Assembly (NCBI RefSeq): GCF_003363755.1
Contig: NZ_CP031396.1
Location: forward strand, 1,364,001-1,428,000
DNA from: Pseudomonas protegens
GTDB taxonomy: Bacteria; Pseudomonadota; Gammaproteobacteria; Pseudomonadales; Pseudomonadaceae
DNA length: 64,000 nucleotides
Direction: 5' to 3'
The notes under the pieces were generated by a model. That model did not search any database. It saw only the letters and a list, made by a program, of their open reading frames with translations, and was not told the origin of the DNA. Position 1 is the first letter of the stretch; each line of letters opens with the position of its first letter. Made by a program: the position numbers and the translations under genes. Of the stretch, positions 20,232 through 26,394 are shown one piece after another.

Positions 20232-20705
20232 ATGTTGCCCGCCACGACTTCCCCCCGGCCCGGCCTGCGCCGGGCCCTGGTGCTTTGGCTCTACGCTGTC
20301 GGCGCCGGCCATCTGCTGGCCGGACTGCTGCTGACCTGGGCCGGCCACAGCGGCCTGTTCAACGACTACCTGGCCAGTATCGAACAGGCCTTCTGGGGCG
20401 CCGCCGCACCGGCGCCGGCCCGGGCCCAGCAGGTCTGGTGGCTGGGCCTGTTCGGCGCCACCCTGCAAAGCTATTCGTTATACCTGCTGGGCCTGGTGCA
20501 CCTGGGCAACCGCCTGCGGGCACCGGCGGCCTGGGCCTGGCTGATGGCCGGGATCGTGCTGTGGGCGCCCCAGGACATGTGGCTGTCGTGGCAGATGAAC
20601 ATGACCGCGCACCTGTGGATCGACAGCTTCGCCCTGCTGGTGCTGCTGCCACCGTTACTGTGGCTGCAGCGCCACGACCGCCGTACCTCTCGTCTTCCCT
20701 CGTAA
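20232..20705 (+). CDS. Hypothetical small integral membrane protein
   Basis: 157 residues with about four hydrophobic segments: LWLYAVGAGHLLAGLLL, a segment near LGLFGATLQSYSLYLLGLV, WAWLMAGIVLWAP and ALLVLLPPLLWL. I do not recognise the family. The ATG has AGGA upstream. The next gene starts 15 bp after the stop, and the one after that 14 bp further, so the three look like one operon with the membrane-anchored SDR protein and the hydrolase/dikinase fusion. Confidence 0.8.
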   Translation: MLPATTSPRPGLRRALVLWLYAVGAGHLLAGLLLTWAGHSGLFNDYLASIEQAFWGAAAPAPARAQQVWWLGLFGATLQSYSLYLLGLVHLGNRLRAPAAWAWLMAGIVLWAPQDMWLSWQMNMTAHLWIDSFALLVLLPPLLWLQRHDRRTSRLPS

Positions 20706-20720
20706 AAGGACTTCACCATC

Positions 20721-22163
20721 GTGGCTGATTTGCCAATCCTGCAGTGGGCCATCGCCCTGTTGCTCGCCCAGGGCGTGCTCGGCGCCCTGGACACGATCTA
20801 CCATCACGAACTCACCGTGGCCCTGCCGCAACGCCACGGCGCGCGCAAGGAGCTGGCAATCCATGCCCTGCGCTCGTGCTTCTACGGCGTACTGTTCATG
20901 GGCATTGCCCACCTGGTGTTCCAGGGCATCTGGGCGCTGGTGATCGCCGTGCTGTTCGCCCTGGAAATCGGCCTGACCCTGTGGGACTTCGTCGTCGAGG
21001 ACCGCAGCCGCAAGCTGCCGGCCATCGAACGCATCATGCACACCGTGCTGGCGATCAATGCCGGGGCCTTCTTCGCCCTGTACGGCCTGCAACTGCTGGA
21101 GTGGTCGCGCCTGCCCAGCGCCTTGAGCCCCATCGACCTGGGCTGGCAAGGCTGGGCCCTGAGCCTGTTCGCCGTCGGTGTGACGGCCTCGGGGATTCGT
21201 GACGGCCTGGCGGCGTTGCGCTTGCAACGCCAGGGCCAGGGCGCCAATCCCTTTGCCGGCGGTGCCGGCAAACGGGTGCTGGTCACCGGTGGCACCGGCT
21301 TTATCGGTGAAACCCTGGTCAACCAACTGCTGGATGCCGGGCACACCGTCAGCGTGCTGGCCCGCGATCCGCTGCGCGCCGCCTACCTGTTCGACGGTCG
21401 TGCCCGCTGCCTGCGCTCGTTGAGCAAGCTGGGCCATGGCGAGGCCTTCGACGTGATCATCAACCTGGCCGGCGCCCCGGTGGCCGGGCCGCGCTGGTCG
21501 GCCAAGCGCCAGGCGCAACTGTTGGCCAGCCGGGTCGGCACCACCGAGGCCCTGCTCAACTGGCTGCAACACGCACAGCACAAGCCGGAGCTGTGGATCC
21601 AGGCGTCGGCCATCGGCTTCTACGGGGTGCGCGACGCCAGCCAGAGCCTGGATGAAAACGCCGAGCGCGGTGAAGGCTTCATGGCCGATCTGTGCGCACG
21701 CTGGGAGTCCTCGGCGGAACCGGCCACCCGTTTCGGCGTGCGCCAGGTGGTGCTGCGCCTGGGCATCGTGTTCGGTCCCGGCGGCGCCTTGAAACCCCTG
21801 CTGCTGCCCTTCCATTTCGGCTTTGGCGGACGCATGGGCGATGGCCAGCAGATCATGAGCTGGGTGCACCGCGACGACGTGTTGCAGGTGATGGCCCGGG
21901 CGATGAACGACGCGTCCCTGTCCGGCACCTACAACATGGTGGCGCCGGAAGCGGTGAGCCAGGGCACCTTCGCCACCACCGTCGGCAAGGTGCTCAAGCG
22001 TCCGGTGTGGCTGCATGTGCCGGCCGCGCCGGTGCGAGCCCTGGCCGGGGAAATGGCCGAGCTGTTCTTCGACGGCCAGAAGGTGGTGCCCGCGCGCCTG
22101 CTGCAGGCCGGCTACCGCTTCCGTTACCCGACCCTGGACGCGGCCCTGCGCGACCTGACCTGA
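20721..22163 (+). CDS. Membrane-anchored SDR-type nucleoside-diphosphate-sugar epimerase-like protein (YfcH/TIGR01777 type)
   Basis: 480 residues with a GTG start preceded by AAGGA. Residues 1 to about 170 form a membrane domain with four to five helices. Residues from about 185 are an atypical SDR domain with the nucleotide-binding motif VLVTGGTGFIGETL, followed by the YfcH hallmarks NLAGAPVAGPRWSAKRQ and ASAIGFYG. YfcH domains usually stand alone (about 300 residues), so the N-terminal membrane extension is the unusual part. The reaction is unknown for the family. It sits in the middle of the three-gene unit and probably acts at the inner membrane. Confidence 0.85.
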   Translation: MADLPILQWAIALLLAQGVLGALDTIYHHELTVALPQRHGARKELAIHALRSCFYGVLFMGIAHLVFQGIWALVIAVLFALEIGLTLWDFVVEDRSRKLPAIERIMHTVLAINAGAFFALYGLQLLEWSRLPSALSPIDLGWQGWALSLFAVGVTASGIRDGLAALRLQRQGQGANPFAGGAGKRVLVTGGTGFIGETLVNQLLDAGHTVSVLARDPLRAAYLFDGRARCLRSLSKLGHGEAFDVIINLAGAPVAGPRWSAKRQAQLLASRVGTTEALLNWLQHAQHKPELWIQASAIGFYGVRDASQSLDENAERGEGFMADLCARWESSAEPATRFGVRQVVLRLGIVFGPGGALKPLLLPFHFGFGGRMGDGQQIMSWVHRDDVLQVMARAMNDASLSGTYNMVAPEAVSQGTFATTVGKVLKRPVWLHVPAAPVRALAGEMAELFFDGQKVVPARLLQAGYRFRYPTLDAALRDLT

Positions 22164-22177
22164 GCTGAGGAATGCCC

Positions 22178-24616
22178 ATGAGCAAGCCCCTGTTGTACCT
22201 GCTGGCGGGCAATGGCAGCGCCGCCGACTGGTGGGACGATGCCCTGCCGCACTTTCAGCGCTATCAGGTGCAGCCGCTGGAACTGCCGGGCTTTGGCGAC
22301 AATCCACTGCCTCCTTGCAATGACCTCGGCGAATACGCCGAGGCCCTGCTGGGCATGACCGAGCCGGGCCAGGGAATTGTCGCGGTGGGGGTCAGCGCGT
22401 TGATCGTGCTGCACGCCTTGCAACGCTGCCCCGGGCATTTCTCGCGCAGTGTGCTGCTGTCGCCGGTGGGGGCCTTTCTCTGGCAACGGCGCCTGCCGGC
22501 ACTGATGTCGCCGCTGCCGGCGCGCCTGCTGATTCATGGCTTGCTCAGCCATAAACCGACCCTGTTCGCCGGCAAGTTCTCGCGCCAGCCGTGGACCCAG
22601 GAGCAATACCAGCGCATGGGCTCGGGCTATGCCCGCTGCCGGGCTTTCGTGCCGCTGTGGCAACAGCTGCGGGCCGACACCGCGCTGCCACTGCTGGAGT
22701 GGATCAGGGACCCGGTGCACCTGGTCTGGGGCGACCAGGACCGGCTGCTGGGGATGGCCCAGGCTGCGGCCTGGTCGGCGATCCTGGCCCGGGCCGACCT
22801 GCGGATCAGCCTCAAGCCGGGCTGGGGCCATTACCCCTGGATCGATGCGCCGACGGCGTTCGTCGACTGGCTGGAGTCCGGCGACCCGGGTTTCGTCGCC
22901 CACACCAAGGGCGGCCGCCTGCGCCTGGCAGAACTGGCCGGCCGGCCGGTGCCCAGCGCCCTGTCCCTGGACAGCGCCGGCGACCCGCGCTTGCCGGCCC
23001 TGCTCGCCAGCCAGCCGCAGGCCTTATGGGCGGTACGCTCTTCCAGCTACGGCGAAGATCAGGCCGACTCGGCCAATGCCGGGCTGAGCACCACTTACCT
23101 GCGGGTCGCCAGCACGGACGTGCCTGCGCGTATCAGCGAGCTGCGGGACGCCGGCGTCGAGGAAGTGGTGGTGCAGCGCTTCATCCAGCCGACCCTGTCG
23201 GGGATCGCCTTCGTGCGTCATCTCGCGGTGGAGCTGGAGTGGGTCGAAGGCCATCTGGAAAGCCTCGCCGACGGTCAGGTCAGCCCCCAGCGGGCGGTGC
23301 TCTCGCGGCTGGGCAGTGCCTGGGAAAGTGGCCACTTCGCCAGCACCCAGGGACTCGACGCCAGTGCCTTGTGGGACTTCCTGCAAGGGGTGCTGAAGGT
23401 CTTCCACTATGTGCCCGGCGATGTGGAATGGGCCTGGGACGGTCAGCAACTGTGGCTGCTGCAGTACCGCCCCATCAGCGACTACGGCTGGCGCCGGCAC
23501 CTGACCGCAGCCAATATCGCCGAAATCCTGCCGCCGCAACCCAGCCGCTTCGTCGAGTACGGCCAGCGCCGGGCAGCGGTGAGTATCCCGGCGATCATGG
23601 CCCGCTGGGACAGCCGGGTGCTGCAGGACAACGAACCCTTCACCGCGGTGTTCGGCGGGGCTTCCTACATCAACAACGACCTGTTCCTGGCGCGCCTGGC
23701 CGACTGGGGCCTGCCCTCCTCCAGCTACGCCGGGGAAGTCGGTGGCGCCACCCCGGAGCTGCCCCTGCGCCCGCTGCGGCTGCTGCGCTCGCTGCCGCGC
23801 TTCCTGCGCATGCAGCACGTTGCCCGAGGCCATCTGCTGACCCTGGAACGCGGCCTGCGGCGCTTCGATGACGAGTTGGCGCAGTTGCATCAGAGCGCTG
23901 CCAACGGCCAGCAACTGGCGGACTGGTTCAGCCGTTTCTATGTGTTCGTGGTGCAGGGCAACCTGTGCATAGCCACCGCCCTGGCCAGCAGCGGCGGCGC
24001 GCTGCTGGGGCGCCCGCCCACCGCCTACGACAACCTGGACCACAGCCCCCATCGCCTGCCCTGGGAAACCGACCCCGGCACCCCGCGCCCGCCCTGCACC
24101 GAGTTGCCGCTGCAGGCTTTCCCGCACTGGAGCCCGGCCATCACCCTGGCCCACCGCCTGGGTTTGCCGGGCATGCGCGGCTACTACCTGCAAGTGCGCG
24201 AGTGGTACCGGGACAACCTGATGCGGATCTTTTTCCGCCTGCACCACGCCGTGCCCGAGGCCGATCGCGGCTACTGGTTCGCCCCCCACGAGCAGCCGCG
24301 CAGCCGCGGCGGCAGCTTCTGGCAGGACGGCCGCGAAGGCAGCGAGCAGGCCGCGGGCTTCATGATCTATCCGGGGCAGGTCCAGGGCGTGCTGGGGGTC
24401 GATATCCTCCTGGAAGATACCCTCGATCCCGGGCGCCACGCTCACTACCAAGCGGCCCGGGCCGTGATCGCGCGCATGGGTGGGCGCCTGTCCCACGGCT
24501 CCACGCTACTGCGGGAACTGCGCAAGCCGTCGGCGGTGCTGCCGCAAGTGGACACGGCCTGGGTCGGCCGCGAAGTGCTGTATAGCGACGGCCGGCTGAG
24601 CCTGGTCGAAGGCTGA
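22178..24616 (+). CDS. Fusion of an alpha/beta hydrolase with a PEP-synthase/rifampicin-phosphotransferase-like dikinase
   Basis: 812 residues. Residues 1-240 are an alpha/beta hydrolase with a possible triad (Ser73 in GVSAL, Asp in WGDQDRL, His in GWGHYPW). Residues about 255-435 are a PPDK/PEP-synthase ATP-grasp domain: AVRSSSYGEDQADSANAG, VVVQRFIQPTLSGIAFV and LWLLQYRPI match its conserved blocks. The end (about 755-790) has GGRLSHGSTLLRELRKPSAV, the phospho-His swivel domain of PEP-utilising enzymes. A linker of over 300 residues takes the place of a substrate domain. This is the layout of rifampicin phosphotransferase with a hydrolase added in front. No PEP-binding barrel is visible. The ATG at 22178 fits GAGG better than the one 6 bp earlier. 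Confidence 0.88.
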   Translation: MSKPLLYLLAGNGSAADWWDDALPHFQRYQVQPLELPGFGDNPLPPCNDLGEYAEALLGMTEPGQGIVAVGVSALIVLHALQRCPGHFSRSVLLSPVGAFLWQRRLPALMSPLPARLLIHGLLSHKPTLFAGKFSRQPWTQEQYQRMGSGYARCRAFVPLWQQLRADTALPLLEWIRDPVHLVWGDQDRLLGMAQAAAWSAILARADLRISLKPGWGHYPWIDAPTAFVDWLESGDPGFVAHTKGGRLRLAELAGRPVPSALSLDSAGDPRLPALLASQPQALWAVRSSSYGEDQADSANAGLSTTYLRVASTDVPARISELRDAGVEEVVVQRFIQPTLSGIAFVRHLAVELEWVEGHLESLADGQVSPQRAVLSRLGSAWESGHFASTQGLDASALWDFLQGVLKVFHYVPGDVEWAWDGQQLWLLQYRPISDYGWRRHLTAANIAEILPPQPSRFVEYGQRRAAVSIPAIMARWDSRVLQDNEPFTAVFGGASYINNDLFLARLADWGLPSSSYAGEVGGATPELPLRPLRLLRSLPRFLRMQHVARGHLLTLERGLRRFDDELAQLHQSAANGQQLADWFSRFYVFVVQGNLCIATALASSGGALLGRPPTAYDNLDHSPHRLPWETDPGTPRPPCTELPLQAFPHWSPAITLAHRLGLPGMRGYYLQVREWYRDNLMRIFFRLHHAVPEADRGYWFAPHEQPRSRGGSFWQDGREGSEQAAGFMIYPGQVQGVLGVDILLEDTLDPGRHAHYQAARAVIARMGGRLSHGSTLLRELRKPSAVLPQVDTAWVGREVLYSDGRLSLVEG

Positions 24617-24631: not shown

Positions 24632-25615
24632 TCAGACCTGCTCGGTGCTGGCAAAACGTTCGCGGTAGGCCTGGGGCGTCACCCCCAGGGCCCGCAGCAG
24701 GCTGCGGCGCAGGGTTTCTTCACTGCCAAAACCGCATTGGGCGGCGATGCGCTTGATCGGCAGGCCGGTGTCGGCCAGCAGGCGCCGGGCGGTTTCCACG
24801 CGGATCAGTTCGATGGCCCGGGCCGGGGTCTGGCCGGTGTCGGCGCGGTAGTGACGGACGAAGCTGCGCTCGCTCATGCCCGCCTGCTGGGCCAGGATCG
24901 GCAAGGTCAGCTCGCGACTGAGATTCTCGGCAATCCAGGCGTGCAAGCCATCGAAACGCCCGCCGCTGTTTTGCAGCGACAGGGTCACGCTGAACTGCGA
25001 CTGGCCGCCCGGGCGCTTGAGAAACACCACCAGTTGCCGGGCCACATCCAGCGCCGCCTCGCGCCCCAGGTCGGCCTCCACCAGGGCCAGGGCCAGGTCG
25101 ATACCGGCGGTGACTCCGGCCGAGGTCCACACCGGGCCATCGTTGATAAAGATCGGATTGGGCTCCACCCGCAACTGCGGGTATTGCTCGGCCAGTTGAT
25201 CGCAGCGGGTCCAGTGGGTCACCACCCGGCGCCCGTCCAGCCAGCCACTGGCGGCCAGCAAAAAAGCCCCGGTGCAGACCGAGGCCACCCGCCGCGAGGC
25301 CGTTGCGCGCTGGGCGACCCAGGCCACCAGCTGCGGGTCCCGAGCCGCCTCGTAGACGCCCCAACCGCCGGCAATGATCAAGGTGTCGCAGGCCACCTCC
25401 GGCGCCGGCAGGGCCTCGGCCAGCAGCGCCAGCCCCGATGAACTCAGGGTCGCCCCGCCCGGGTTGGCAATGACCCTGGGGTTGTAGGGCAAGGGCAAGC
25501 CCAGGCCACGGGCCCGGTCATTGGCCGAGGCAAACACCTGCAACGGGCCGGTGACATCCAGCAACTGGGCATTGGCGAAGGCCAGGACAAACACATTTTT
25601 CGCGGAGCTGGACAT
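24632..25615 (-). CDS. GlxA-type AraC-family regulator (DJ-1/PfpI domain plus AraC HTH)
   Basis: 327 residues. The N-terminal half is an amidotransferase-like DJ-1/PfpI domain (LDVTGPLQVFASANDRA; elbow VASVCTGAFLLAASG with Cys). The C-terminal half has two AraC helix-turn-helices (AQQAGMSERSFVRHYRADTG; AAQCGFGSEETLRRSL). The ATG at 25615 is the family start. It is divergent from the isonitrile hydratase gene, whose product shares the same DJ-1 fold, and is the obvious candidate regulator. Effector unknown. Confidence 0.92.
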   Translation of the reverse strand: MSSSAKNVFVLAFANAQLLDVTGPLQVFASANDRARGLGLPLPYNPRVIANPGGATLSSSGLALLAEALPAPEVACDTLIIAGGWGVYEAARDPQLVAWVAQRATASRRVASVCTGAFLLAASGWLDGRRVVTHWTRCDQLAEQYPQLRVEPNPIFINDGPVWTSAGVTAGIDLALALVEADLGREAALDVARQLVVFLKRPGGQSQFSVTLSLQNSGGRFDGLHAWIAENLSRELTLPILAQQAGMSERSFVRHYRADTGQTPARAIELIRVETARRLLADTGLPIKRIAAQCGFGSEETLRRSLLRALGVTPQAYRERFASTEQV

Positions 25616-25707
25616 GATTGGCGTAAATCGAGGGCAGGTTGGCGTATGCGCCAAATCCTAGAACGCTAGAGTCAAGCCGTCCACCCCACCCACACAAGGA
25701 ACAGGCC

Positions 25708-26394
25708 ATGACAGTGCAGATAGGTTTTCTGTTGTTTCCAGAGGTTCAACAACTGGACCTGACCGGTCCCCACGACGTGCTGGCCTCGCTGCCCGACGTA
25801 CAGCTGCACCTGCTCTGGAAGGAAACCGGGCCGGTGATCGCCAGCTCCGGCCTGGTGCTGCAGGCCACCACCGGCTTTGCCGACTGCCCGCCCCTGGATG
25901 TGCTCTGCATTCCCGGGGGCGCCGGTGTCGGGCCCTTGATGGAAGATCCCCAGACCCTGGCGTTCATCCGTCGGCAAGCGGCCCGGGCGCGGTATGTGAC
26001 CTCGGTGTGCACCGGCTCCCTGGTGCTTGGCGCCGCCGGCCTGCTGCTGGGCAAGCGCGCCACCACCCACTGGGCCTACCACGAACTGCTGGCACCCCTG
26101 GGGGCGATCCCGGTGCGCGAGCGGGTGGTGCGTGACGGCAACCTGCTGACCGGCGGCGGCATTACCGCCGGCATCGACTTCGCCCTGACCCTGGCCGCCG
26201 AACTGTTCGACGCCGCCACCGCGCAGCGGGTGCAACTGCAACTGGAGTACGCCCCGGCGCCGCCGTTCGAGGCCGGCAGCCCGGACACCGCCCCGGCCAG
26301 CGTGGTGCAAGAGGCCCGCAGCCGGGCAGCGGACTCCCTGCACAAGCGCCGGGAGATCACCCTGCGGGCGGCTGCCCGACTGCAAGCCGGTTGA
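25708..26394 (+). CDS. inhA: Isonitrile hydratase (DJ-1/PfpI family)
   Basis: 228 residues. The catalytic nucleophile is Cys101 in TSVCTGSLVLGAAGLL, and from memory both the length and this position equal those of Pseudomonas isonitrile hydratase InhA, which turns isonitriles into N-substituted formamides. Other family features are FPEVQQLDLTGPHDVL at the N-terminus and the GGAGVGP loop near residue 70. AAGGAACAGGCC gives the ribosome-binding site and supports the ATG at 25708. It is divergent from the GlxA-type regulator. A related DJ-1-fold hydrolase cannot be excluded without a phylogeny. Confidence 0.85.
   Translation: MTVQIGFLLFPEVQQLDLTGPHDVLASLPDVQLHLLWKETGPVIASSGLVLQATTGFADCPPLDVLCIPGGAGVGPLMEDPQTLAFIRRQAARARYVTSVCTGSLVLGAAGLLLGKRATTHWAYHELLAPLGAIPVRERVVRDGNLLTGGGITAGIDFALTLAAELFDAATAQRVQLQLEYAPAPPFEAGSPDTAPASVVQEARSRAADSLHKRREITLRAAARLQAG

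Follow-up and report, generated by a model that had tools for sequence, protein, structure and literature searches.

Within a 64,000-nucleotide stretch of the Pseudomonas protegens genome (NZ_CP031396.1, positions 1,364,001 to 1,428,000; hereafter the window), which sits within one 6.67-Mb contig, three same-direction genes, here called g1, g2 and g3, occupy positions 20232-24616. The product of g3 joins an alpha/beta-hydrolase fold to the modules of a phosphohistidine dikinase. The tight three-gene unit with 14-15 bp gaps described in the original prediction, which was made from the bare sequence, is seen when g3 is started at ATG 22178, the gaps then being 15 and 14 bp. This start is likelier than ATG 22172, because database entries for the nearest homologues give 812 residues. 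Residue numbers below follow the 814-residue form (ATG 22172), and 2 is subtracted for the 812-residue form; His775 is the residue formerly numbered 773. The features are as follows.

20232..20705, plus strand: g1, small hydrophobic predicted membrane protein, 157 residues (open reading frame calls; no match in family searches)
20721..22163, plus strand: g2, hydrophobic N-terminal domain, TIGR01777-type short-chain dehydrogenase/reductase (SDR) and DUF1731, 480 residues, GTG start
22178..24616, plus strand: g3, fusion protein, 812 residues from ATG 22178 (814 from ATG 22172)
22178..22900, plus strand: g3 alpha/beta-hydrolase-fold domain, residues 3-243
22394..22396, plus strand: g3 Ser75, hydrolase-nucleophile position (121-row alignment)
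22739..22741, plus strand: g3 Asp190, triad residue, invariant in 121/121 rows of the alignment
22829..22831, plus strand: g3 His220, triad residue, invariant in 121/121 rows of the alignment
22901..23482, plus strand: g3 compact ATP-grasp domain (PPDK_N), residues 244-437, with Arg289, Glu295, Asp296, Thr308, Glu419, Gln431 and Arg433
23483..24385, plus strand: g3 linker, predicted acceptor-binding domain, residues 438-738, with invariant His627-Arg628 and Arg676-Glu677..Arg680
24386..24613, plus strand: g3 phosphohistidine swivel domain, residues 739-814
24494..24496, plus strand: g3 His775, predicted phosphohistidine, invariant in 121/121 rows of the alignment

The g3 fusion is genuine and fixed. 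Pfam recognizes Abhydrolase_1 at residues 6-225 (26.1 bits, cut-off 25.8) and PPDK_N from residue 283 (39.7 bits, cut-off 27); PEP-utilizers at residues 744-789 scores 22.6 bits, slightly under its cut-off of 23.1, which the relatives P0079 and P0118 exceed. Among the matches listed, the homologue set comprises 120 proteins with 65-97% identity, hosted by Pseudomonas, Burkholderia, Bordetella, Achromobacter, Rhodoferax and others. Because 119 of these 120 cover 99-100% of g3 (the exception, P0119 with 648 residues, covers 79%), the proposed chain of hydrolase, ATP-grasp, linker and phosphohistidine domains is real and no assembly artefact. The window copy is 95-96% identical to g3 of named P. 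protegens records, and a search with the kinase part alone returned, among the matches listed, 117 of these fusions and 3 shorter entries. Compared with seven relatives, the window copy shows a ratio of nonsynonymous to synonymous substitution rates (dN/dS) of 0.13-0.18 over the full gene. Taken singly, its four parts give 0.06-0.23 and are all under purifying selection. Homologues are annotated as 'alpha/beta hydrolase', 'PEP-utilizing enzyme' or 'pimeloyl-ACP methyl ester carboxylesterase', and the PADLOC anti-phage models gave no family for g1, g2 or g3 at E ≤ 0.001.

Catalytic columns were read over 121 rows, namely the 120 homologues and the window. Arg289, Glu295, Asp296, Thr308, Glu419, Arg433 and His775 are invariant (121/121) and Gln431 is present in 120/121, so the Arg/Glu/Gln blocks and the C-terminal His picked out in the original prediction are kept across the family and, judged by these columns, the ATP-grasp and His domains are not dead. 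In rifampicin phosphotransferase (RPH), according to its description (PMC4844700), the ATP site needs Arg117 and Thr136, His825 carries the phosphate, and Glu297 is a further ATP residue whose change resistance survives. The g3 counterparts are R289 for Arg117, T308 for Thr136, E419 for Glu297 and H775 for His825. Of these, R289 and E419 are paired with RPH-type rows by profile and T308 is placed by spacing: the 19 residues between R289 and T308 equal the spacing of Arg117 and Thr136, and the end points of the match to PDB entry 5fbs agree. About 40 residues follow His775, without a further Pfam domain.

The likeness extends into the linker. An alignment of 69 g3 rows (the window and 68 of the 120 homologues) was compared with one of 46 RPH-type rows (44 of 120 listed proteins, the query L108 and L107), the latter reached through a relative with a two-part match to the RPH model. 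The two profiles match with probability 98.4 and E 9e-15 over g3 residues 285-533, so the ATP-grasp domain and the first ~95 linker residues (440-533) presumably share ancestry with RPH-type middle domains. The linker and swivel together match the RPH-type rows with probability 83.7 and E 8e-6. On realignment, PHRLPWE of g3 (from 626, containing the invariant His627-Arg628) is set against the RPH-type GHRxxYE motif; the middle of this alignment path is weak, because the core of the match is the swivel domain. The linker alone gave no significant profile match. A full-length g3 model built on 69 sequences has a mean predicted local distance difference test score (pLDDT) of 86.5 and a predicted template-modelling score (pTM) of 0.86, and its five best Foldseek matches are RPH-Lm entries (E 1.4e-12 to 2e-9). 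Structure prediction, which had been suggested for the linker, gave a good model of the full-length chain; the linker-only model was poorer and had no significant match in a structure search of PDB. The RPH domain order recognized originally is supported by Pfam, Foldseek and the profile comparison alike, and the view that the substrate part is different is not supported for the linker as a whole, the first third of which aligns with RPH-type profiles.

Two other arrangements of RPH-type modules were seen. In genome G335 (contig 114, L086:5008-9318, minus strand), a 1436-residue fusion shares the ATP-grasp domain and linker start with g3 and comprises two rhodanese domains, a YidC/60KD_IMP membrane domain, ATP-grasp, an RPH-like middle, a phosphohistidine domain and PilZ. 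In G569 (contig 37, L110:49-4666), an RPH-type kinase directly follows two genes that by eye seem to encode a phospholipid acyltransferase and a membrane phosphatase, a hint of a possible lipid-linked dikinase away from the g3 unit.

The front domain departs from the esterase pattern. In the Ser75 column Asn occurs in 84 rows, Ser in 33 (the window included) and Gly in 3, with one gap; in the 80 named loci, which are the best 80 of 131 chosen by g3, the codon is AAT in 43, AAC in 26, AGC in 8, AGT in 2 and GGC in 1. The residue at +2 is Leu in all 80, the window copy too, and not the usual Gly, so that the elbow reads G-V-[NSG]-A-L and not GxSxG. Asp190 and His220 are nevertheless invariant (121/121), and the window copy keeps Ser-His-Asp. 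On the g3 tree with midpoint rooting, the deepest clades have Asn75 and 9 changes are required; Asn is apparently the older state. These sequence features make a classical serine hydrolase improbable for the front domain, and the esterase annotation is probably wrong for most family members; for the original prediction, serine-hydrolase activity across the g3 family is not supported.

The partner proteins are hydrophobic in whole or in part. No Pfam, NCBIfam or PADLOC family matches g1. The g2 product carries a TIGR01777 SDR domain (residues 186-476, 312.1 bits against a cut-off of 207.35; PDB 4b4o, E 4.6e-48) and DUF1731, preceded by a hydrophobic N-terminal part (residues 1 to ~165) for which we know of no family. 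This membrane part (window 20721-21220) contains many invariant polar residues (D, Y, H, E, R, ED, ER, H and N), kept across eight aligned proteins down to ~40% identity, a pattern that would fit a buried metal, heme or catalytic site. In 22/80 loci (L009, L010 and 20 others), the gene just before g3 is an in-frame fusion of g1 with the SDR, whose own membrane part is gone; the g1 alignment leaves out the L114 row, which was in a wrong frame.

Across the 80 loci, g1, full g2 and g3 stand together in 25 (counting L078, whose g2 contains an in-frame TGA), the g1::SDR fusion precedes g3 in 22, and g1 and g3 occur without the SDR in 23, with their frames estimated to overlap in 17 of those 23. Eight loci, all from Burkholderia, have g3 alone, and two (L066 and L076) are arranged otherwise. 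A survey of 144 genomes, made up of the window's own and its relatives, found g3 in 22 and g1 in the identical 22, within 2 kb of each other in all (Fisher 2e-26, kinship ignored); these counts leave out weak g1 matches in G028, G054 and G136 (25-29% identity, E 8e-9 to 8e-8) and single-domain g3 matches (E 7e-11 or weaker). A full or g1-fused g2 occurs in 17 of the 22 g3 genomes and a full g2 in 2 of the 122 others. Hence the expectation that all three genes travel together was borne out for g1 and g3, and the SDR gene g2 is an optional and not an obligate member. A class-wide sample gave g3 matches in 2/369 genomes, the window's own and one with a partial ATP-grasp match only. Flanking genes mostly differ among nine loci compared by eye.

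Burkholderia (the genus of G512, Burkholderia cepacia LK29) separates the unit. Among 65 genomes, g3 occurs in 23, g2 in 34 and g1 in 35 (G664 has a g1 match without g2; the g3 match in G620 spans positions 1-759 only), g1 and g2 are adjacent in 34, and g3 and g2 are on separate contigs in 23/23. Even so, g1-g2 is present in 23/23 genomes with g3 against 11/42 without it (p 1.3e-9, kinship ignored). This association despite lack of linkage is the strongest sign of joint function.

Several loci point to a larger cluster around g1-g2. Chitinimonas L076 (2588-10442) runs MarR, DCC1-like, SDR-DoxX, g2, DUF4166, a polyketide-cyclase/lipid-transport-like gene and then g3, and possibly represents an older form of the unit. 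Rhodoferax L078 has the order MarR, DCC1-like, g1, g2, g3, and Burkholderia cepacia L084 has MarR, SDR-DoxX, DCC1-like, g1 and g2 without g3. Also without g3, g2 lies beside DUF4166 in G079, from the window's genus (L111), and beside a distant g1 in G136, from the window's order (L112). The fusion gene may have joined a pre-existing membrane redox cluster, if the direction of change is read correctly.

We lean, by a modest degree, towards g3 representing a small-molecule dikinase subfamily of RPH type to which an alpha/beta-hydrolase-fold substrate module has been added, with an acceptor site in the linker and g1 as membrane partner. Phosphate from ATP would travel via His775 onto a small, likely hydrophobic molecule, at one of its hydroxyl or enol groups; the predicted membrane protein g1 would deliver or take up this molecule. 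By analogy with RPH and HpeHI, the beta-phosphate of ATP would pass to the His, leaving AMP and inorganic phosphate, and the swivel domain would then dock on the linker, where the acceptor site would lie; this cycle is borrowed from PMC4844700 and PMC12167813. The front domain may bind, position or abstract a proton from the substrate through the His220-Asp190 pair, presumably without a serine acyl-enzyme, given the lack of serine conservation. In loci that include g2, the SDR could make or use the same substrate by a membrane redox step. The 'lipid-like' or 'xenobiotic' substrate suggested originally is a guess.

Several observations weigh against this dikinase assignment. Three of the 22 genomes (G007, C13; G010, C1; G034, C1) have g3 broken into two frames, each at a different point, reflecting either dispensability or decay in some hosts or misassembly. 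The ATP-grasp domain is short (~190 against ~310 residues), and Lys22 of the RPH N-lobe has no clear aligned counterpart; the register is uncertain and the candidates are K246 and R249, both invariant in all 69 rows of the g3 profile alignment. The E419 column is weak proof, because RPH tolerates change of Glu297, its likely counterpart. The profile-comparison figures stand without a shuffled control, and the latter half of the linker, taken by itself, matches no profile or fold significantly. The Foldseek matches to RPH have template-modelling scores of 0.22-0.27 and root-mean-square deviations of 16-21 Å, so that only domains match RPH and not the whole arrangement. In RPH, Arg666-Glu667-x-x-Lys670 is described in PMC4844700 as contacting the substrate phosphate, the catalytic His and Gln337; R676-E677-x-x-R680 of g3 resembles this motif by eye, but the aligner left the two unpaired. 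The Burkholderia co-occurrence may be partly a clade effect, since relatedness was left uncorrected, and g1-g2 would be able to act alone, as 11 Burkholderia genomes carry the pair without g3.

Alternative readings draw on the same data. A bifunctional enzyme, in which an active serine hydrolase would free an alcohol or acid from its ester or thioester for the dikinase to phosphorylate, appears unlikely given that position 75 is Asn or Gly in 84 and 3 of the 121 rows, that its codons are mostly AAT/AAC, that +2 is Leu and not Gly in 80/80 loci, and that the midpoint-rooted tree places Asn in the deepest clades with 9 changes. The prodigiosin ligases PigC and RedH use phosphorylation to activate one substrate, which is then joined to another, and g3 could likewise be an ATP-dependent ligase whose extra front domain holds the second substrate. 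The PigC and RedH models do match the g3 ATP-grasp weakly (20.3 and 14.8 bits), but these scores are far under the cut-offs of 1300 and 1350 bits and the nine loci inspected by eye have no shared biosynthetic genes around the unit; we consider a ligase improbable. Similarly doubtful is vectorial phosphorylation, in which a phosphohistidine relay would power uptake or trapping through g1, as in the sugar phosphotransferase system or scavenging phenol dikinases. It is favoured by g1 being the strictest partner of g3, by the overlapping frames in 17 of the 23 loci lacking the SDR, and by the trapping by phosphorylation that the authors of the HpeHI work suggest (PMC12167813), and it is countered by the absence of a transporter family match for g1 and by g1-g2 occurring without g3 in the 11 Burkholderia genomes and, as a distant pair, in G136.

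That g3 is a degenerate accessory gene of little function, kept by linkage, we regard as very improbable: its patchy presence (22/144 genomes; class-wide 2/369, one the window's own and one a partial ATP-grasp match) and the split frames in 3/22 genomes speak for decay, but the catalytic columns are invariant, dN/dS is 0.06-0.23 in all parts, and g3 is found with g1-g2 even when unlinked. A more specific and speculative version of the dikinase scheme, to which we give rather little credence, has the His-Asp front domain enolise a ketone delivered by the membrane SDR and g1, and the phosphohistidine phosphorylate the enolate to the enol phosphate of a membrane-derived metabolite in an undescribed pathway, which would make g3 a first 'base-plus-phosphoryl' dikinase; the older core of the pathway would be MarR, DCC1-like, SDR-DoxX, g1, g2, DUF4166 and the lipid-transport-like gene, of which Chitinimonas, Rhodoferax and Burkholderia each show a portion.

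Downstream of g3 (3' side), the window encodes an AraC-type regulator with a DJ-1/PfpI domain (24632-25654, minus strand) and, as its divergent partner, what by eye is a second DJ-1-like protein (25639-26394, plus strand); the AraC-type regulator adjoins g3 in only 7/80 loci.

The preferred reading, an RPH-type dikinase with a membrane partner, describes a compact g1-g2-g3 unit carried by some Pseudomonas and related bacteria, for most members of which the annotated esterase function needs caution. It offers a small, testable system in a soil Pseudomonas, and phosphohistidine chemistry would gain a new architecture in a conserved hydrolase-fold fusion that mostly lacks the serine and is tightly linked to a membrane partner. 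Among the matches listed from the open-access literature, with subscription papers outside this scope, no description of the g3 fusion or cluster was found. Known substrates of RPH-type dikinases are few, namely rifamycins, phenols and hydroxyphenylethanones (PMC4844700, PMC12167813), and annotations such as PEP synthase or pyruvate, water dikinase are common among RPH-type relatives.

The TIGR01777 SDR family (SDR39U1, SulA-like) shares its SDR domain with g2, which differs by the extra hydrophobic N-terminal domain, elsewhere replaced by in-frame g1. Compared with esterase-type alpha/beta hydrolases (P. fluorescens aryl esterase, DAD2/D14), the g3 family mostly has Asn for the nucleophile Ser and lacks GxSxG; as a family it departs from the serine alpha/beta hydrolases at this elbow, though the triad Asp and His are present. 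PEP synthase and PPDK have ATP-grasp and swivel-His domains as g3 does, but the His is central in them and C-terminal in RPH, according to PMC4844700, and g3, with His775 ~40 residues from its C-terminus and no Pfam domain after, was rejected as one of them. The curated models for the rifamycin-inactivating phosphotransferase (NF041857 equivalog, 11.7 bits against a cut-off of 999) and for PigC/RedH prodigiosin-type ligases likewise did not recognize g3. The two-component phenol dikinases HpeHI, CreHI and PpsAB, compared by description (PMC12167813), share with g3 three dikinase modules, a small-molecule acceptor and a swivel His; they have a separate ATP-grasp protein and serve aromatic catabolism, whereas g3 is a single chain with a hydrolase fold. 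The closest likeness in layout is to RPH (PDB 5hv1, 5fbs; PMC4844700), which has the same order of ATP-grasp, acceptor domain and C-terminal phosphohistidine, the conserved Arg/Thr/Glu ATP residues and His, and alignable first ~95 linker residues; g3 is set apart by its extra N-terminal alpha/beta-hydrolase fold, its shorter ATP-grasp and linker, and its place in a gene unit with predicted membrane proteins.

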